Shown piece after piece: positions 2,839-20,042 of a stretch of DNA of 45,551 bases. This DNA comes from a virus. The first letter of the stretch is position 1; the number at the start of each line of letters is the position of its first letter. The position numbers and the translations under genes are program-made. The stretch lies in the IMG/VR virus record IMGVR_UViG_3300022924_000021, positions 1 through 45,551 of that record; one strand, given 5' to 3'. The notes below the pieces were generated by a model that searched no databases, was not told where the DNA came from, and saw only the letters and a list, made by a program, of their open reading frames with translations.

Positions 2839-2848
2839 TCCCCCACAT

Positions 2849-2934
2849 GCTTTGGTAATCTGTTAAAGAGGCAGGTCAGACTGTAAATCTGATACCATTC
2901 GGTTCGCTAGGGGCAGTACCTAGACAAAGCACCA
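2849..2934 (+). tRNA. tRNA-Tyr-like (anticodon GTA) with aberrant T-arm
   Basis: The acceptor GCTTTG pairs with CAAAGC and is followed by ACCA. The D-arm (CTG/CAG) has GG in its loop. The anticodon arm TCAGA-CTGTAAA-TCTGA is textbook and reads GTA (Tyr). A long variable arm (ACC-ATTC-GGT) fits a class II tRNA-Tyr. However, acceptor pair 7-66 is a G-A mismatch, and the T-stem CTAGG/CCTAG closes GGCAGTA instead of the usual TTCRANN loop. It may be a degenerate tRNA or a tRNA mimic. Confidence 0.55.
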
Positions 2935-3130
2935 AGTTTGCATAGCCTCAGTAATGTGGGGTGAAGGCACTATCGAAGTGTCGCAACCAGCTGTCGTAAG
3001 GCTGGTGTTATCTATGAGTCCCTAATCGCTAAGGGTGTACATTAGGCGTTGGAGCGTAATGGGTGTTCGACACGCCCACTGATGTATGGCGCTTGCTCAT
3101 GGGTAACACTGGTCTTATGACCGATAATAT
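2935..3130 (+). ncRNA. structured noncoding stretch with tRNA-like T-arm
   Basis: No gene fits these 195 bases, but stem-loops are dense: GCACT/AGTGT, ACCAGC-TGTCGTAAG-GCTGGT near 2986-3006, CCTAAT/ATTAGG near 3020-3045, and GGGTG-TTCGACA-CGCCC at 3061-3077. The last is a canonical tRNA T-arm with a TTCRANN loop. A complete cloverleaf could not be built because no anticodon arm fits. It may be a degenerate tRNA cluster or a distinct RNA co-transcribed with the tRNA-Tyr-like element. Confidence 0.4.
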
Positions 3131-3660: not shown

Positions 3661-4069
3661 GTTTGTAAAAGTAAAGTTTCTTAGTACTAAAGATAGTCAA
3701 ACATCAATGGGCTATTTTTATAAAGAAGAACTAAGTAGAGCATTAAAGAAGTGGGACACTGTTTTAGTACCTACACGTTATGGTTTAACATTGGCAGTCG
3801 TTGTATCGACTTACAAGAATGAAGACCAAGTAAAAGAAGCTTATCAGAGCTATGGTACATTTGGCTTACATGACATCAAGTCTGTATCTGAAAAGATTAA
3901 GTCTAAAGTAGTAGACCAACAGCTTACTAAAGAAAAAGCTGGTGATATTAAAAAGAAGCTTGAAACTAAGATGAAAGAAGTGGATGAAGTTCAAAAGTAC
4001 AAGATGTACGCAGAGCTTGACCCCTCAATCGCAGAGTTGTTAGCGGAATTGGAAGAATTGCGTGCCTAA
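3653..4069 (+). CDS. hypothetical protein (138 aa) with beta N-domain and charged helical tail
   Basis: AAGGAG upstream and an 8-base overlap with the preceding gene support the start. Residues 1-55 look like a small beta-barrel (RFVKVKFL..., DTVLVPTRYGLTLAVVV). Residues 85-138 are lysine/glutamate-rich helices, possibly a coiled coil. The gene is directly upstream of, and overlaps, the cyclotransferase-like gene, so it may belong to the same pathway. No family assignment is possible by eye. Confidence 0.65.
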   Translation: MSRFVKVKFLSTKDSQTSMGYFYKEELSRALKKWDTVLVPTRYGLTLAVVVSTYKNEDQVKEAYQSYGTFGLHDIKSVSEKIKSKVVDQQLTKEKAGDIKKKLETKMKEVDEVQKYKMYAELDPSIAELLAELEELRA

Positions 4070-4382
4070 GATTTTCGCATACGGTACTCTGAACCTTCAC
4101 GAGGTACAAGACTGGTTGTGGAACGAGGAGAAACAGGGTCGAGTTAAACAGTTGAATGATTATAGACTAAACACATATCCTAGTGGTATATATTACATCA
4201 CTAAAGAGTTTGGTGAAACGGTTGCTGGTAAAGTATACGACATCACAGATGAGCAACTCAAGCGTACTGACGCTTATGAGGGTAACGCTTACGAACGTGA
4301 AATGGTTACTATAGACGGCGAAATAGTTAATGTTTACATACAAAGGAGTATTAAGGAAGATGAGCTTAAAAACAACGCTTAA
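4062..4382 (+). CDS. gamma-glutamylcyclotransferase-like (AIG2/GGCT family) protein
   Basis: A 106-residue protein with the family's signature FAYGTLN at its N-terminus (residues 5-11). A later DAYEGNAYER segment supplies the expected catalytic glutamate near residue 73. AIG2/GGCT enzymes release 5-oxoproline from gamma-glutamyl amines or handle related isopeptides. The start is GTG at 4062, overlapping the previous gene. The next gene encodes a predicted amide-bond ligase and the one after a class II amidotransferase, so a role in making or editing gamma-glutamyl-type amide bonds is likely. The substrate is unknown. Confidence 0.8.
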   Translation: MPKIFAYGTLNLHEVQDWLWNEEKQGRVKQLNDYRLNTYPSGIYYITKEFGETVAGKVYDITDEQLKRTDAYEGNAYEREMVTIDGEIVNVYIQRSIKEDELKNNA

Positions 4383-5682
4383 GGAAATTGAGTCAGCGGG
4401 TTTTAGTTACATTAAGGTTGAGCTTGAGGCACAACTGCGCCGACCATACGACAGTGATGAGGGTGAATACCAGACTTGTTCAGACTGTGATGGAGACGGT
4501 AGTCATGAGTGTAGCGATTGTGAGGGTAGTGGATACATTGAAGTAGAACTTACTCGACCAGACGGTAGTACATCAGATATGACAGAAGAAGTTACTTGTG
4601 ATGAGTGTAGCGGTGCAGGTAATCATGAGTGTTCAGAGTGTGAAGGTGGTGGTGAAGTATACCGTGAATCAGACGGTGATGACTTCGGTTCAGTAGAATA
4701 CTGCCAACGATACATCGAAGACCAACTTAGCCCAGAAGCGAAAGCGGCTATCATCTACGGTCGTTTCTACAATGACGGTTCAGTAGACAGCGAGTATACA
4801 TTCACAATTCACTCTAAGGACGCTAAGTTCTTACCTGAGATTATCGACAGCTTCAATAAGTTAGCAGAAGCAGTTGGTAATGGTATGGACGTAGACGGAG
4901 CAGGTATGCACGTTGCAGTTCTACCGACAGAGAGTAATGGTGTTTACCCAGTACGAAACTTCGCACTTGATGACACTAAGCTAACTAACTTCCGTACAGA
5001 GGTAACTAAGTTACTTCCAGCATTGTTCATCGCAGCTACTAGTGGTAACTTCACTAGGGCATTGAACTACCGACACCCTAAGATTGACTTTGACAAGTAC
5101 TCTGCAATTCACATTGTAGACGGACGTTGTTTAGAATATCGCTTGTTTGAGACTTGTTACCAACGACCAGAGGCTATCTTCGAGTACCTAGAGACGATTG
5201 CTCGTACACTAGAATACTACAAAGACCCTACTAAAAAGGTTGAATCAATCGGTAAAGAGTTCGTATTCTACGACCGAGAAGGTATCAAGGGCTTCACATC
5301 AACACCAGACCAAGTTCGTATCATTAAGAAACAGCTTAAAATGGTGGTTGGTAAGGGCGTAACGCTTAAGTCATTCATGAAAACTCGTGAGATTGACTTA
5401 TCAGTACAGACTCGAAACAAAGAGTTTGGTAAAAAGCTTGCTCGTGCTAAAGCGTTGTACATTGACGCTAAACGAGATTACGAATACCGTGTTTCACAAC
5501 CGCTATCACAATACGAACAAGAACGATGGCGTGAACACCGAAACTATGGCTACTTTGAAGGACGAGACACTCGTGAAGAACAGATTGCTTACATTCGTGG
5601 CATATCTAAAGTAGGTACAGAAGAAGAATTCGTAAACAGAAACGTACTAAGTATGCGACTAGCCGCCTCGGTTAGTTGTTAA
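4360..5682 (+). CDS. zinc-finger amidoligase-like (COOH-NH2 ligase) protein
   Basis: A 440-residue protein. ATG 4360 is chosen over 4330 because AAAGGAG lies 11 bases upstream. Residues 40-94 hold four CxxC pairs in DnaJ-type CxxCxGxG form (Cys 40/43, 51/54, 80/83, 91/94). Residues about 130-290 carry motifs I associate with glutamine-synthetase-fold amidoligases: a DGSV...E stretch (139-145), GAGMHV (180-185), KYSAIHI and CLEYRLFE (257-264). The zinc module appears inserted after the first strand (IKVELEAQ). Such enzymes join a carboxyl to an amine with ATP. The neighbours would supply ammonia and edit the product. The target, a metabolite, a host protein or the cell surface, is unknown. The C-terminal 130 residues are basic and helical. 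Confidence 0.68.
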   Translation: MSLKTTLKEIESAGFSYIKVELEAQLRRPYDSDEGEYQTCSDCDGDGSHECSDCEGSGYIEVELTRPDGSTSDMTEEVTCDECSGAGNHECSECEGGGEVYRESDGDDFGSVEYCQRYIEDQLSPEAKAAIIYGRFYNDGSVDSEYTFTIHSKDAKFLPEIIDSFNKLAEAVGNGMDVDGAGMHVAVLPTESNGVYPVRNFALDDTKLTNFRTEVTKLLPALFIAATSGNFTRALNYRHPKIDFDKYSAIHIVDGRCLEYRLFETCYQRPEAIFEYLETIARTLEYYKDPTKKVESIGKEFVFYDREGIKGFTSTPDQVRIIKKQLKMVVGKGVTLKSFMKTREIDLSVQTRNKEFGKKLARAKALYIDAKRDYEYRVSQPLSQYEQERWREHRNYGYFEGRDTREEQIAYIRGISKVGTEEEFVNRNVLSMRLAASVSC

Positions 5683-5686
5683 TAAG

Positions 5687-5703
5687 AAAGGAGCAAGATT
5701 ATT
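5687..5703 (+). promoter_or_regulatory. ribosome binding site deciding an ATT start
   Basis: AAAGGAG at 5687-5693 is seven bases from ATT 5701. The frame upstream of ATT contains TAA at 5683 and no ATG, GTG or TTG. Initiation must therefore occur at ATT 5701, or less likely at ATT 5698. Confidence 0.8.
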
Positions 5704-6981
5704 TGCGGAATTGTATACAGTAAAAGTTTCAATAACAAAGACGTAACTAAGACTGTTCTTAAACGGTTTGAAGCACAACGTAGTCGTGGTACTACATCTT
5801 TCGGCTTCTACCTACCAGAGAACAACCAGCTTACACACAATGTTAAAGAAACACGAATTAAGAACTTGCTAAAGCGTTCTAAGGGGAGTAACCATGAGGT
5901 TCTATTCCATCACCGCTTCAGTACAAGTACGGCAGACGTACCAAACGCTTGCCACCCATTCAGTACTAAAGACCACTTTAAGAACAACTATGTAGGTGTT
6001 CACAATGGGGTACTAAGTAATGAGAACGTGCTAGAGAAAGAACATCTTGCACTCGGTATCAACTATGTATCTAAACAAAAGGACGGACGGTTTAACGACA
6101 GTGAAGCCCTAGTTTACGATATTGCACGAGTATTAGAGGGTCAAGTTGAAGAATTGACAGCACAAGGTTCTATCGCTTTCATTATGATTAAACGTAATAA
6201 AGACGGTAAACCAACGACACTATTCTTCGGTCGTAACAGTGGCAACCCACTGAAAATGAAGAAGACAAAACACTCACTTACACTGAGTAGCCAAGGTGAG
6301 GGTAAAGATATTGACATTAACCAGCTATATAGTTTTGACTATGACACTGGAGAATTGACAAAACGATACCTCTATATTCCCTACTACAGGAGTTCTGGTC
6401 AAAACTGGAACTCAGGAAGCGAATACTATGGCTACACAGGTAATAATTACGGGGCTTCTACTGGCTTCCACCGTCCTGCTTGGGATAATGAGGAAGACGA
6501 AGAAGAACGGTTTTTAGAGCAGCAAGAGCTAATCGAGGAGTTTGAAGACTACAACGGTTACGGTACATGGGTTGGTGAAGACGCTATGGCTATCATCAAC
6601 AAGGGCAACTTTGCTCCTCGTGAGGGTAATGACGCTGCGATTGAACACTCTATCATGCTTGAAGCTAAGGGTGATTATTCAGAAGCGGCTATGATGTGTA
6701 TAGCAGAAGCCTCAGAAGCAGAAGTAGAAGAAAGTCGTATTAATAGGGTTATCTACGAAGTTGTTAGCAACGAAGCGTATGATGACCTCTGTGAATACTG
6801 GTATCAGCTTAATGCTTACAAGTTACTTATGGCTAAGATGGCAGAGAAGTTTGAAAAAGCTTCACTCATTCTAGTAAACCAACAACCATTGATTGATAAC
6901 AATGATGGTATTGTTGTGAGTAACGAAGAACGTAGCCTGTTGCCTGTGAACGTAATGGCTCACAACCCTAAAGCAGTTTAA
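5701..6981 (+). CDS. class II (Ntn-type) glutamine amidotransferase, ATT start
   Basis: A 426-residue protein read from ATT: MCGIVYS places the catalytic Cys at position 2. Other GATase II motifs follow in order: QRSRGTTSFGFY (26-37), HHRFST (70-75), CHPF, VGVHNG (98-103), NDSEA (132-136) and GSIAF. The domain hydrolyses glutamine and passes ammonia to a partner. There is no fused synthase domain, only an acidic region (about 205-240) and a helical C-terminus, so the acceptor enzyme is probably the adjacent amidoligase-like protein. The preceding gene is in the same frame, but two TAA codons separate them. The AUU codon suggests IF3-sensitive, low-level translation. Confidence 0.85.
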   Translation: MCGIVYSKSFNNKDVTKTVLKRFEAQRSRGTTSFGFYLPENNQLTHNVKETRIKNLLKRSKGSNHEVLFHHRFSTSTADVPNACHPFSTKDHFKNNYVGVHNGVLSNENVLEKEHLALGINYVSKQKDGRFNDSEALVYDIARVLEGQVEELTAQGSIAFIMIKRNKDGKPTTLFFGRNSGNPLKMKKTKHSLTLSSQGEGKDIDINQLYSFDYDTGELTKRYLYIPYYRSSGQNWNSGSEYYGYTGNNYGASTGFHRPAWDNEEDEEERFLEQQELIEEFEDYNGYGTWVGEDAMAIINKGNFAPREGNDAAIEHSIMLEAKGDYSEAAMMCIAEASEAEVEESRINRVIYEVVSNEAYDDLCEYWYQLNAYKLLMAKMAEKFEKASLILVNQQPLIDNNDGIVVSNEERSLLPVNVMAHNPKAV

Positions 6982-6995
6982 TATAAAGGAGTAAT

Positions 6996-7451
6996 ATGCA
7001 AGACAGTGAAATGCACTCGATTCTATTCAGGTCAGTCATAGCTCGGTTGAACACTCTTACTGGTGAGGACGGTATGAATATCGGTGATAGTGGTGAAAAC
7101 CCTATCGCTGAGTTCTATATCGCTTATCAGCAACGACCAACAGAGCGTTTCGCACACAACTACGAGAGAGATAAGTTCTTACATCACCGAGACAAGTATT
7201 CGATGATGAACAAAGATGGTTCTGCTTTCATCGTAGCTGAGGTCAAGCAGGGGGATTATGTTACAATCTATAGTAAACCTATCAAGCTAGCGTTTGGTAG
7301 AGACGGGAACCGTGCAGTGGAGATGTTAGAACGTCTTATGCACAAGTTCTACGACAAGGTTACTGTAGAGGAAATCTCACCTATTCGTTTGGTTGATTAT
7401 AGTCAATCAGGCAATAGTGCAAGAGATGTACGAGTACGAAATGACCTCTAG
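6996..7451 (+). CDS. hypothetical protein in amidoligase cassette (151 aa)
   Basis: AAAGGAG eight bases before the ATG and a 14-base gap from the amidotransferase gene place it in the same operon. The protein has a helical N-terminus and a central beta segment (SAFIVAEVKQGDYVTIYSKP), with no motif I recognise. It overlaps the following gene, so the two probably act together. It may be a substrate or accessory protein of the ligase system; this is a context argument only. Confidence 0.7.
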   Translation: MQDSEMHSILFRSVIARLNTLTGEDGMNIGDSGENPIAEFYIAYQQRPTERFAHNYERDKFLHHRDKYSMMNKDGSAFIVAEVKQGDYVTIYSKPIKLAFGRDGNRAVEMLERLMHKFYDKVTVEEISPIRLVDYSQSGNSARDVRVRNDL

Positions 7452-8721
7452 TAATTACAAAAAGGGTTACTCTGCCCTTCGTAAGATAATCAATGATGAT
7501 GAACTAGAGTTTTCAAGGCAGTTTGCCAAGTTCACATTCTGTATGACGGAGCGTTGGAGTGCCAGAAGTGAATTAAAAGGTATCTACAATAGTAAAACAA
7601 ACAATGTGGTGGCTTTTGTAAACAAAAAGGGTAATGTATTCTTTAGAAAGAACTCTATTTATGCTAATCACATACTAGAATCTAAGAATAAAGTTATTTT
7701 ACATAAAGATTTAAGGTCATTACGTCATAAAGTGCCTAGTAACATTAAAGTTAGCTCAAAATGGCACAATATGGCTGAATTAGCGGTTGAAAGACTAGTT
7801 AAAAACGATGATAAGCCTAACCGAGTGTTCTTGTTTAGCTTTATAGCAGACGATAGGCTCGACGACCGCTTCATTATTAGACAGATTAAAGCTTTATTAA
7901 AGGCTATGCCTCATAGTAATACACTTTATGCACTAGAAAACAGTAGCCTTATTGTAGAAGAAGACGTTTCACAGCATAAGTATAAAGCTTATATTGAGAT
8001 TCAAGATTATTCAGAAGCTATTGCAGAAAAAGAGCGCATTGACCGTATCAAAAATGAGATTGCAGAGACATTTATTGGTCATATCCAAGAGATATCACAA
8101 CAATCTATCACTACTGGTACAACAATGAACCCTATGCAGTTTACGTTTACAGAGAGTAACGGTACAGAAGTTACAGGACGTATTGCACTTAACAGGCTTG
8201 ACATGATGTATCCTCGTGAAATGCCAGTTCGTGATTGGATTAATGCTGAACATATTGTAAGATATATCACATTCCAAGAACGTATGGGTTCACTTGAAGA
8301 ACGTGGTATTGATGAGATAGCTATTCGTGAAGAAAATGAACGACGACAAGCAGAACGCAACGCTGTTGCAGAAGCAGAAGCTCGAATGTACGAAGAAATG
8401 GCTCGAATCCACCCAGGTTCAGTGAATATCATGCCTCGTATGAGCTACAATCAAGTTCGTTACATGAGTCGTGAACAAGTAGAAAGTTCTGCTGTATTCG
8501 GTGCTGATGTTGCAGAAAACCCATTCGGTACAGGTGTTATATGGCACAACGGTATAGATGTAGCACAATCTAACGATGTAGTAGCACCACCAATGCCTCG
8601 TATGAGTATCTTTGAGGACGAATATCCTGATACTGCTGATGAAGCAGATGACATCTTGCGAGAACTACTCCAAGATACAGACACAACAGTAGAAGGTAAT
8701 GCACCTATGTCTAGTGCATAG
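7426..8721 (+). CDS. hypothetical protein in amidoligase cassette (431 aa)
   Basis: The frame is open from TTG 7393. ATG 7426 and ATG 7441 are the likeliest starts, both overlapping the previous gene. Residues 1-190 are basic and mixed alpha/beta. Residues about 270-330 form a long charged helix (EENERRQAERNAVAEAEA). The C-terminal 100 residues are acidic and low-complexity with two MPRMS repeats. There are no catalytic motifs I know. As the last gene of the cassette and before a structured RNA, it could be the target protein or a scaffold for it. Confidence 0.7.
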   Translation: MYEYEMTSSNYKKGYSALRKIINDDELEFSRQFAKFTFCMTERWSARSELKGIYNSKTNNVVAFVNKKGNVFFRKNSIYANHILESKNKVILHKDLRSLRHKVPSNIKVSSKWHNMAELAVERLVKNDDKPNRVFLFSFIADDRLDDRFIIRQIKALLKAMPHSNTLYALENSSLIVEEDVSQHKYKAYIEIQDYSEAIAEKERIDRIKNEIAETFIGHIQEISQQSITTGTTMNPMQFTFTESNGTEVTGRIALNRLDMMYPREMPVRDWINAEHIVRYITFQERMGSLEERGIDEIAIREENERRQAERNAVAEAEARMYEEMARIHPGSVNIMPRMSYNQVRYMSREQVESSAVFGADVAENPFGTGVIWHNGIDVAQSNDVVAPPMPRMSIFEDEYPDTADEADDILRELLQDTDTTVEGNAPMSSA

Positions 8722-8744
8722 GTAGGTTACAAGACTTAGCACAT

Positions 8745-8859
8745 GGGAGTGGCGGAGTGGCATATTTAGCAGTCCTGTCGTTGGACAAGTGGTCTGTCGT
8801 TGACTACGCAGTATATGGTGTGCAACTTGGAGAGTATGCGAAATTAGTAGCTGCTCTCC
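8745..8859 (+). ncRNA. candidate multi-hairpin RNA with repeated TGTCGTT loops
   Basis: The 209-base gap holds no gene. GGGAGTGGC (8745-8753) pairs with GCTGCTCTCC (8850-8859), one bulge, closing the whole element. Inside are two hairpins with identical loops: GTCC-TGTCGTT-GGAC (8772-8786) and GTGGTC-TGTCGTT-GACTAC (8789-8807). The 5' part resembles a tRNA A-box (TGGCGGAGTGG) but no cloverleaf forms. A similar TGTCGTAA loop occurs near 2992. No family is recognised. Confidence 0.45.
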
Positions 8860-8860
8860 T

Positions 8861-8898
8861 TGTCAAGTCTTGACATTAAACAAAAATTATGATACACT
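8861..8898 (+). promoter_or_regulatory. promoter with palindromic operator over the -35
   Basis: TTGACA (8870-8875), a 17-bp spacer and TACACT (8893-8898) drive the gene at 8931. The -35 is one arm of the perfect inverted repeat TGTCAAG-T-CTTGACA (8861-8875), a likely binding site for a dimeric regulator. Confidence 0.7.
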
Positions 8899-16562: not shown

Positions 16563-17306
16563 ATGAGTGACTTACTCACAACATTAACTGTGACAGCAGT
16601 TGCACCGTTTCTCTGGGCTAACCCAGGGACACAACCACTATATACACCTCCACAGGTGAGCGTAGTGGCGAAACAAGAAGCCAAAGCACCTAAGAAGGAA
16701 GAAAAAGTCGAGGTCAAACAGGAAACTGTAGTACCCGAAACTCCAAAGGTAGTTACCTATGTAGTGCAAGAAGGCGACAATCTGTCTGTTATAGCAGAGA
16801 AGTTCCAGATTAATTGGGTTCGTATCTGGCAAAAGAATGAACAGTTGCAAAACCAAGACCAATTAAATGTCGGTGATACTATCACAATCCCTAATACGGA
16901 TGAGGCATTAGCTGATAGGGGCTTAATAGCTCCTGTAAGCGCTCCTACCACACAAACTGGCAATGTATCCAACTCCACCCAAACAGGCTCATACAGAGGC
17001 TCTGGTGGCTCTAACGGTTATACATATGGCTGGTGTACATGGTGGGCGAAAGAGAAACGTCCTGATATCGGTGGATATTGGGGTGACGCAGGTTACAGTT
17101 GGATATCCTCAGCACAAGCTGCTGGGTTCTCAACTGGTTCTGTTCCTAGAGCAGGAGCCATAGGCGTTACAGCAGGACACGTTGTATATGTTGAATCCGT
17201 GAATGGAAACACCATTACTTTATCTGAAATGGGTTGGGGCTATCGAGCCAATACCACACCTAATTACAGAACGTCAAGTGCCTCGGCTTTCACATACATC
17301 TATTAG
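16563..17306 (+). CDS. LysM-CHAP peptidoglycan hydrolase (247 aa)
   Basis: Residues 5-20 are a short hydrophobic stretch that may act as a signal or anchor. A Lys/Glu/Pro-rich linker follows. Residues about 63-110 form a LysM domain (YVVQEGDNLSVIAEKFQIN... VGDTITIP). Residues about 150-247 form a CHAP domain with GWCTWW (catalytic Cys) and TAGHVVYVE (catalytic His). It lies in the plus-strand arm, 1 kb from the convergence point and apart from the minus-strand lysis cassette. ATG 16563 has no good ribosome-binding site, and TAG lies nine bases upstream in frame. It may be a secreted secondary lysin or a virion wall-opening enzyme. Confidence 0.88.
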   Translation: MSDLLTTLTVTAVAPFLWANPGTQPLYTPPQVSVVAKQEAKAPKKEEKVEVKQETVVPETPKVVTYVVQEGDNLSVIAEKFQINWVRIWQKNEQLQNQDQLNVGDTITIPNTDEALADRGLIAPVSAPTTQTGNVSNSTQTGSYRGSGGSNGYTYGWCTWWAKEKRPDIGGYWGDAGYSWISSAQAAGFSTGSVPRAGAIGVTAGHVVYVESVNGNTITLSEMGWGYRANTTPNYRTSSASAFTYIY

Positions 17307-17564: not shown

Positions 17565-17638
17565 ACGGGATTGGTCTAATGGTAAGACAAGAGATTCCAA
17601 ACCTCTTAACGGCAGTTCGATTCTGTCATCCTGTGCCA
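17565..17638 (+). tRNA. tRNA-Trp (anticodon CCA)
   Basis: Complete cloverleaf: acceptor ACGGGAT/ATCCTGT, D-arm GTCT/AGAC with GG in the loop, anticodon loop TTCCAAA, T-arm GGCAG-TTCGATT-CTGTC, discriminator G and encoded CCA. A1-U72 and G73 are the usual tRNA-Trp identity elements. There is a mismatch at the base of the anticodon stem (31-39). It reads UGG, so it gives no sign of UGA recoding. Confidence 0.9.
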
Positions 17639-18764: not shown

Positions 18765-20042
18765 TTATGGTTTAAAGTTTTTAAATAGGTTACTTAGGAA
18801 TTGTACCACAGCTGCTACTATCTTTTCAAGTACACTTACACGTTGTTCGAGGTCAGTATCAGGGTTCTTGATTTCTGTATCACTTAGATATAGGGTTTCG
18901 ATAACCTCTTTCTGCCCTTCAAGTACGAGTAGGTCTTTACCAACAAGTTCAGTAGCGTGTGTGATACGAACCTTAGTGTTGATAGGAAGACGGCGAGTAA
19001 CTGTACCATCTACAATGTTGAGCACAGGTGTCTCTGAACGTGTCCAGAAGTCCTTGTCTTCAATGTCGATTAGGTTCTTCAACCATTCTGGCTTTTCCTC
19101 TACTGGAACAACTACTGGAACACCGAGGTCGCTGGCTTTGATACCGTTAGCGATGTTACCATTAGCAGAGTAGTTAGAGATGAGGTACTTCACACCACCA
19201 AGAGTCGTTTCCTTAGCGATGTCGATTTGTGTACCCTTAGGGATAGTTACGTCATTAACTGGTTGTAGTGTAAGTAGGTTAATTACTTTAGTACCGCTAG
19301 CTGGTAGAACGCTTAACTTAACATCAGTGATGTCTTTAAGGTTACGAATCCACTCAGGCTTAGCTGCTTCAGCGGCTTCTGCTGCCTTACGAGCTTCAAG
19401 GTCTTTACGTTCTTGTGAAGCCATGAGAGCGCCACGAACTTCCTCGTTACTCATACCGTTAGTAGTGAATGTGTGTAGTCCACCTTCGTCAACTTCACGT
19501 TCGAGAATATCTCGGTATGCTTGTTTAACTTGGTCAGCACTTGCTGTTACCTTAGCTGGTTGAGGGTTGTTAATTTCCCTTGCACGGTTAGCAATACGGT
19601 TAAGGTCATAGTTACCAGGACATGCTGTAGCTTGCCATGATTTGTGAGGTCGGAGAGGAATCTCTCGTCCGTAGTAACGCCATGTTTCTGCTACATCTTG
19701 TGCAACAGCTTCATAGTCTTCATCACGACAACGTGGGTCACACTCAAAGCCTAAGCTTGTTGCGTTACCCTGTGCATTACCTGCGTGCCAAGCTGCGTTG
19801 TTATAGTCAACCATAACTGCAACACGGCTACCTGTACCTGTAATGACATCGTGTGCTGATACCTGTGAGCGTGTCTGGCTAAACCATGAAATAACACCTT
19901 CATAGGTTGGGTTTGTGTTTGGGTCTCCCCACCAGTGAATAGTAATCCAGTCGATAGAGCGTGGATAACCATACGCAGCTCTAACATTGGCGTTAGCTGT
20001 GTAGTTAGGTGAGTTTTTGCTGTAATCTACGTTATTTGCCAT
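18765..20042 (-). CDS. endolysin: N-acetylmuramoyl-L-alanine amidase with DUF4214-like and repeat domains
   Basis: 425 residues. Residues 1-155 are an Amidase_2 domain: ITIHWWG (zinc His), AWHAGN, LGFECDPRC, and HKSWQATACPG with the second His and Cys ligands. It cleaves the MurNAc-L-Ala bond. Residues about 166-215 (QAYRDILEREVDEGGLHTF...) look like a DUF4214 module. Two repeats starting KPEWIRNLKDI and KPEWLKNLIDI (about 75 residues each) are probably wall-binding SH3-like domains. The last 30 residues form an amphipathic helix. AAGGAG precedes the start. A promoter lies at 20064-20092. Confidence 0.9.
   Translation of the reverse strand: MANNVDYSKNSPNYTANANVRAAYGYPRSIDWITIHWWGDPNTNPTYEGVISWFSQTRSQVSAHDVITGTGSRVAVMVDYNNAAWHAGNAQGNATSLGFECDPRCRDEDYEAVAQDVAETWRYYGREIPLRPHKSWQATACPGNYDLNRIANRAREINNPQPAKVTASADQVKQAYRDILEREVDEGGLHTFTTNGMSNEEVRGALMASQERKDLEARKAAEAAEAAKPEWIRNLKDITDVKLSVLPASGTKVINLLTLQPVNDVTIPKGTQIDIAKETTLGGVKYLISNYSANGNIANGIKASDLGVPVVVPVEEKPEWLKNLIDIEDKDFWTRSETPVLNIVDGTVTRRLPINTKVRITHATELVGKDLLVLEGQKEVIETLYLSDTEIKNPDTDLEQRVSVLEKIVAAVVQFLSNLFKNFKP

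Follow-up and report, generated by a model that had tools for sequence, protein, structure and literature searches.

A cluster of five genes occupies positions 4062 to 8721 of the IMG/VR virus record IMGVR_UViG_3300022924_000021, the whole 45,551 bases of which (record class ‘linear’) were analysed here and are referred to as the window. From the letters alone, the cluster had been described (the original prediction) as a cassette for amide ligation made up of a gamma-glutamyl cyclotransferase (GGCT)-like protein, an amidoligase-like protein with a zinc module, a class II glutamine amidotransferase (GATase) and two further genes. All five of these reading frames were located, and the three enzyme classes are borne out by a Pfam match to GGACT, a predicted glutamine-synthetase (GS) fold and the residues expected of a class II GATase. 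The gene content of the cassette, its conserved order and its conserved catalytic residues are apparent from the sequences, and we propose, with a probability of roughly 0.6, that it is a phage-encoded, glutamine-dependent module for forming amides.

Relatives were compared across five lineages. The first to be recovered were three close relatives (L002-L004), with ligases 85-92% identical to that of the window, and these form the window clade. Further phages of the same lineage were reached via the terminase, giving records with ligases 36-47% identical, and one relative, L076, came from a further scan; the other lineages are L075 (with L069), L077 and L078. The features of the cassette are as follows.

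4062..4382, plus strand: GGACT/AIG2-type gamma-glutamyl cyclotransferase-like protein (Pfam PF06094), 106 residues, GTG start
4360..5682, plus strand: divergent amidoligase with a predicted GS fold, 440 residues, from a predicted structure and a profile match
4420..4428, plus strand: ExE motif of the ligase (E21, E23), predicted metal-binding strand 1, invariant in 8 of 8 aligned proteins
4471..4659, plus strand: DnaJ/BSD2-type zinc module of the ligase (residues 38-100), four CxxC pairs
4774..4794, plus strand: DGSVDSE motif (D139, S141, E145), invariant across relatives
4903..4911, plus strand: GMH motif (H184); where HxH would have its second His, the window has Ala and relatives have Thr or Ser
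5095..5100, plus strand: KY motif (K246-Y247, in KYSAI), counterpart of RY/KYSALN in known phage amidoligases
5134..5142, plus strand: ExR motif (E259, R261) in LEYRLFETCY, invariant, the top-scoring block of the profile comparisons
5687..5693, plus strand: Shine-Dalgarno sequence AAAGGAG of the GATase gene, 7 nucleotides 5' of ATT, with an equivalent in L002-L004 and L075
5701..6981, plus strand: class II (Ntn) glutamine amidotransferase, 426 residues, apparent ATT start just before the catalytic Cys
6996..7451, plus strand: conserved partner protein of 151 residues with the motif F..N(Y/W).R(D/S), homologues in relatives, no Pfam match
7426..8721, plus strand: protein of 431 residues whose N-terminal domain recurs in relatives, no Pfam match above cut-off

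The best start of the ligase is ATG 4360 (440 residues, MSLKTT...), and the same start is kept in relatives. Residues that are invariant among eight proteins of the family include E21, E23, D139-S141, E145, G182, H184, K246-Y247, E259 and R261, which run in the same order as the Amidoligase_2 motifs ExE, DxS, E, GxHxH, RY and ExR; the ExE of the ligase aligns with the GxExE of that family. E21/E23 in the first core strand and E259/R261 in the last are the two pairs that mark the GS-fold superfamily. Detecting more distant links required diverse relatives together with a profile of Marvin-type amidoligases (mycobacteriophage Marvin gp105/gp106, MEP402, MW202733 and vB_AciJM_313), the nearest detectable to the window ligase. 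A shallow set of near-identical relatives gave nothing significant against phage amidoligases in hhalign, and a mixed 11-sequence profile also failed. The ligase-family profile matched the Marvin-type proteins with Prob 85.8 and E 5.4e-6, and a PF12224-core set weakly (Prob 10). When 1042 open reading frames and 1000 shuffles were ranked by the Marvin-type profile, window-type proteins came directly below all 18 true amidoligases, at modest E-values of 0.0016-0.06.

Structure prediction depended on the alignment in the same way. An AlphaFold2 model of the ligase built from near-identical relatives only was unusable, with a predicted local distance difference test score (pLDDT) of 43, and an alignment of eight diverse proteins raised this to 82.3. 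The original prediction was to fall if no GS fold could be predicted for 4360-5682, and this fold was found: the nearest solved structures are glutamine synthetases (Foldseek 2.5e-5; Z 13.9-12.4), with VIA Z 13.9 and a root-mean-square deviation of 3.9 over 193 residues, in a comparison that covers mainly residues 1-367 and hardly probes the C-terminal helices. Among viral proteins, the fold matches include phage amidoligases (those of LAh_9, tf, CW02 and Atu_ph07) and the Marvin-type protein of Tesla. Matches found by tblastn in 630-kb phages were rejected as Cys-rich repeats in unrelated proteins. On the predicted model, 4360-5682 is a divergent family within the superfamily of GS-fold carboxylate-amine ligases.

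The zinc module lies within this ligase domain, as originally described, and in the predicted model it follows strand 1 (ExE) and comes ahead of the helix that leads to the DGS strand. Its four CxxCxGxG-like repeats, with Cys pairs at 40/43, 51/54, 80/83 and 91/94, are of the DnaJ type, with a match to BSD2_CRD above the cut-off (3e-7, 31 bits against 27) and one to DnaJ_CXXCXGXG below it (2.3e-6, 28.2 bits against 32.7). Four CxxC pairs occur at the same site in L076 and L078, and the module of L077 is degenerate, with His in place of one Cys. The ligase of L075 has just a few residues there instead, and this clean absence within the same lineage marks the module as a removable insertion. Its role is more likely to be in docking or stability than in catalysis. 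A PADLOC match to PDC-M01B spans the zinc module only and was set aside. Cys pairs are seen again in this enzyme group in the GATase of LAh_9 (L017:5769-8309), which is very long (~846 residues) and has six CxxC motifs.

All the catalytic residues of class II enzymes are present and conserved in the GATase: C1, R71, N101-G102 and D132 (numbered from the Cys) supply the N-terminal Cys, the Arg, the Asn-Gly of the oxyanion hole and the Asp of the glutamine site. Its match to GATase_6 (4.9e-5) is slightly below the cut-off, GlmS models align to it from residue 1-2, and it bears a variable C-terminal extension of ~200 residues. In the original prediction the catalytic Cys was residue 2. The conservation of this Cys and the evidence from relatives agree with that placement, but it carries an unstated need for a non-standard start. 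No ATG, GTG or TTG puts the Cys at position 2, in-frame stops lie immediately 5' of the ATT, and the sole option is ATT at 5701-5703 (ATT TGC GGA); the Cys is N-terminal solely if this ATT is the start.

The start region reads AAAGGAG-N7-ATT-TGC in the window and L002-L004, and AGGAG-N7-ATT-TGT in L075, whose matched GATase domain is 54% identical. The sequence in L076, TGA-CTT-ATT-TGC, leaves CTT or ATT as the sole possible starts, and L077 and L078 have ATG-TGY at this position. ATT is found in three of the five lineages (window clade, L075 and L076) and ATG in the other two, and the simplest reading of these alignments is that an AUU start has been conserved in three diverged lineages. Readthrough from the ligase into the GATase was rejected, as tandem stops (TAA TAA, TAG TAA) separate the two in the window clade, and L077 and L078 have ATG starts. 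The Escherichia coli infC gene starts at AUU and is repressed by initiation factor 3 (IF3) (PMC5472188). Because AUU is the start of this IF3-repressed gene, production of the GATase may be held low or be sensitive to IF3. An elaborate scheme, to which we give little credence, would have the DnaJ-type module present a folded or nascent protein, of the host or the virion, to the ligase for amidation, and the supply from the GATase throttled through an IF3-sensed AUU start.

The protein encoded at 4062-4382 is a member of the GGACT family (PF06094; 2.4e-14, 54.4 bits, cut-off 22.8). Its candidate catalytic residue is Glu73 in DAYEGNAYER, and the Glu of DAYEG is also seen, by inspection, in the sequences from L077 and L075/L069. 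This gene is present, in order, in the records of L002-L004, L077 and L075. The order GGCT-ligase-GATase is held in the window, L002-L004 and L077; in L075/L069 it is GGCT, a true PF12224 ligase, the zinc-free ligase and the GATase, the additional Amidoligase_2 gene lying at L069:3828-4598 (PF12224, 24.6 bits). The L078 record has ligase, small gene and GATase, and L076 has ligase-GATase. The trio is in order in three diverged lineages and the ligase-GATase pair in two more, and the next two genes are kept in most. The survey of gene order that had been suggested shows that the cassette is kept across diverged lineages, and with an order retained among relatives whose ligases are 36-92% identical it is more than a set of chance neighbours. 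Ligase and GATase genes are neighbours in each lineage found, and also in phages Kovu, Ottawa, LUZ24 (gp18-gp19), LAh_9, Marvin, MEP402, MW202733 and vB_AciJM_313. In Arthrobacter phage Kovu, gp96-gp97-gp98 (annotated as GGCT, amidoligase and GATase) agree with the window trio in enzymes, order and strand.

Downstream of the GATase, genes 6996-7451 and 7426-8721 overlap, as had been noted. Homologues of the 151-residue protein lie 3' of the GATase in L002, L003, L075, L077, L076 and the L078 record, that is, in every relative whose sequence extends far enough, and in L077, L076 and the L078 record the fifth gene encodes a homologue of the N-terminal domain of the 431-residue protein. Matches of the small proteins in NCBIfam to GldJ and an L,D-transpeptidase fell far under the cut-offs and were rejected. 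The suggestion that these two proteins are targets of the ligase found no support: both accompany the cassette in relatives but vary at the C-terminus, comparison with their homologues revealed no acceptor features, and adjacency is all that ties them to such a role.

Several results weigh against an amide-forming module of this kind. Pfam Amidoligase_2 (PF12224) gave no match to the ligase at E<=1, and a scan of the four records at E<=10 was likewise empty. HxH, which is almost or entirely invariant in comparison sets A2 and A4, lacks its second His in the clade (GMH[VI][ATS]), leaving G-H-x-H incomplete, and the Asn after RY is replaced by His or Tyr throughout the window-type ligases. No GGCT was found in the L078 record and none was read near the ligase in L076. 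No ATP-grasp enzyme was found among the window proteins scanned, a part of the open reading frames of a possibly incomplete record. Nothing in the window points to the substrate, a host search of 84,980 species genomes, with the ligase and the terminase as queries, gave no match, and no biochemical test of such phage cassettes, the window ligase included, was found in the literature consulted.

Some of these results bear on particular alternatives. The lack of a PF12224 match and of the second His files the ligase outside PF12224 as defined, as a divergent family; the likeness to Amidoligase_2 proposed originally stands in motif order and in the Marvin-type profile, but not as a match to the Pfam family. 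The two substitutions might also mean that the ligase domain is no longer fully catalytic and now serves as a binding or regulatory subunit. We regard this as improbable: proteins spanning 36-92% identity all keep ExE, DGS, E, H, KY and ExR, which would not be expected after a loss of catalysis. The apparent lack of a GGCT in two lineages is the kind of observation that could indicate neighbouring genes with no shared pathway; this is very unlikely given an order kept in five diverged lineages and a trio also found in the unrelated cultured phage Kovu. It shows instead that the GGCT is accessory and not essential, the core being the ligase and GATase and, usually, the two partners.

Comparison with known systems shows several differences. 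The Kovu ligase, gp97, is an ordinary member of PF12224 (3.5e-32) without a zinc module, and the genes neighbouring the trio differ from those in the window. Marvin-type ligases, like that of the window, are followed by a class II GATase, and several have Cys-rich, zinc-type motifs; these are N-terminal to the ligase domain and not of the DnaJ type, whereas the DnaJ-type module of the window is inside the domain. Their HxH is complete, unlike that of the window ligase, and Marvin gp104 has no GGCT match. The podovirus cassettes (LUZ24, tf, UFV-P2, LAh_9, PSA-HP1 and phiEco32) likewise group GGCT, amidoligase and GATase, within the early/replication half of the genome, and also contain an ATP-grasp enzyme and a further COOH-NH2 ligase; within the window group a second ligase is seen only in L075/L069. 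MurT of Staphylococcus aureus is a Mur ligase and its partner GatD is not a class II GATase, so that this pair is not homologous to the window enzymes. MurT-GatD works on a similar principle, the glutamine-dependent amidation of a cell-wall carboxylate (PMC3267633). The novelty of the window cassette was at first overstated, as related cassettes have been published as peptidoglycan-modification modules (PMC5498523, PMC11945000); it is a divergent version of a known phage cassette, whose trio is already annotated in Kovu. What is new here is the DnaJ-type zinc module within the ligase, the missing second His of HxH and the apparent AUU start of the GATase.

The analysis of Iyer et al. 2009 is said, in papers citing it, to be the founding one for this type of cassette. 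An effect of phage cassettes of this kind on the cell-wall peptides of the host has been predicted from 2009 onwards. The gene set of PSA-HP1 was named a peptidoglycan modification cassette and hypothesised to block superinfection (PMC5498523), and the HP1 cassette is transcribed immediately after infection (PMC7082346). The gene content by which such cassettes are recognised, GGCT, amidoligase and GATase as neighbours, is present in the window.

The most likely chemistry of the window cassette is an ATP-driven, glutamine-dependent amidation of a carboxylate. The GATase would hydrolyse glutamine at its N-terminal Cys and supply ammonia; the GS-fold ligase would activate a carboxylate with metal-ATP and form an amide with this ammonia (or with an amine). 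The zinc module, as an insertion in the ligase domain, would probably serve in docking, the 151- and 431-residue proteins may be helper or specificity subunits, and the GGCT-like enzyme may trim or recycle gamma-glutamyl products. It is possible, though rather doubtful, that the ligase instead attaches an amino acid or peptide, with the GATase acting as a separate hydrolase of gamma-glutamyl amides and the GGCT as an eraser. Both of the latter might cleave gamma-glutamyl bonds, both are listed as degradation genes (PMC5498523), and the carboxylate-amine ligase YbdK is, weakly, among the fold matches of the ligase. The GATase, however, has a full glutaminase site and shows a one-to-one pairing with the ligase in every lineage seen, even where the GGCT was not found, which suggests a supply of ammonia.

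For an ammonia-dependent amidation, the leading candidate acceptor is a host cell-wall peptide, which would be altered early in infection; this is favoured solely by the precedent of related phage cassettes. The same chemistry might be directed at a protein (host RNA polymerase, a translation factor or a virion protein) or a small metabolite, a tentative alternative that we consider less likely. The window holds no tie between the cassette and the cell wall, and the R2K ATP-grasp peptide ligases of jumbo phages, which have another fold, have been proposed to modify host proteins (PMC7824862). Published predictions for related cassettes prefer peptidoglycan (PMC5498523, PMC11945000).

Other features of the window include two lytic-type enzymes, a LysM+CHAP protein (16563-17306, plus strand) and an Amidase_2 protein (18765-20042, minus strand), and a tRNA-Trp(CCA) at 17565-17638. 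A further RNA lies upstream of the cassette.

2848-2935, plus strand: unannotated tRNA-Tyr-like RNA with a GUA anticodon and a cloverleaf fold

Homologues of this element occur at L002:6900-6988, L003:6485-6571, L004:6489-6576 and L078:4302-4395. Across the five sequences, standard pairs fill 100% of 128 pair cells, and in 11 of the 26 pairs both partners show compensatory changes (0 of 500 shuffles). The acceptor stem is followed by CCA, the D loop is short, and the T loop (GGCAGUA) is invariant and abnormal; neither ARAGORN nor Rfam detects the element. The ~190 noncoding bases directly after it (2940-3130, plus strand) are 80-84% identical in L002 and L003, and are possibly a structured RNA. 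In L002 and L003, noncoding DNA following the cassette (8721-8880, plus strand) is 85-95% conserved; its segment 8744-8850 folds no better than shuffled sequence.

Phage cassettes of amidoligase, GATase and GGCT are widespread, and the substrates given for them in the literature consulted are predicted only. The lineage of the window offers a compact core, genomes that naturally have or lack the zinc module and the GGCT, and an apparent AUU start. Together with Kovu and Marvin, which are in culture, it brings the targets and the purpose of amidation by phages within reach of direct tests.

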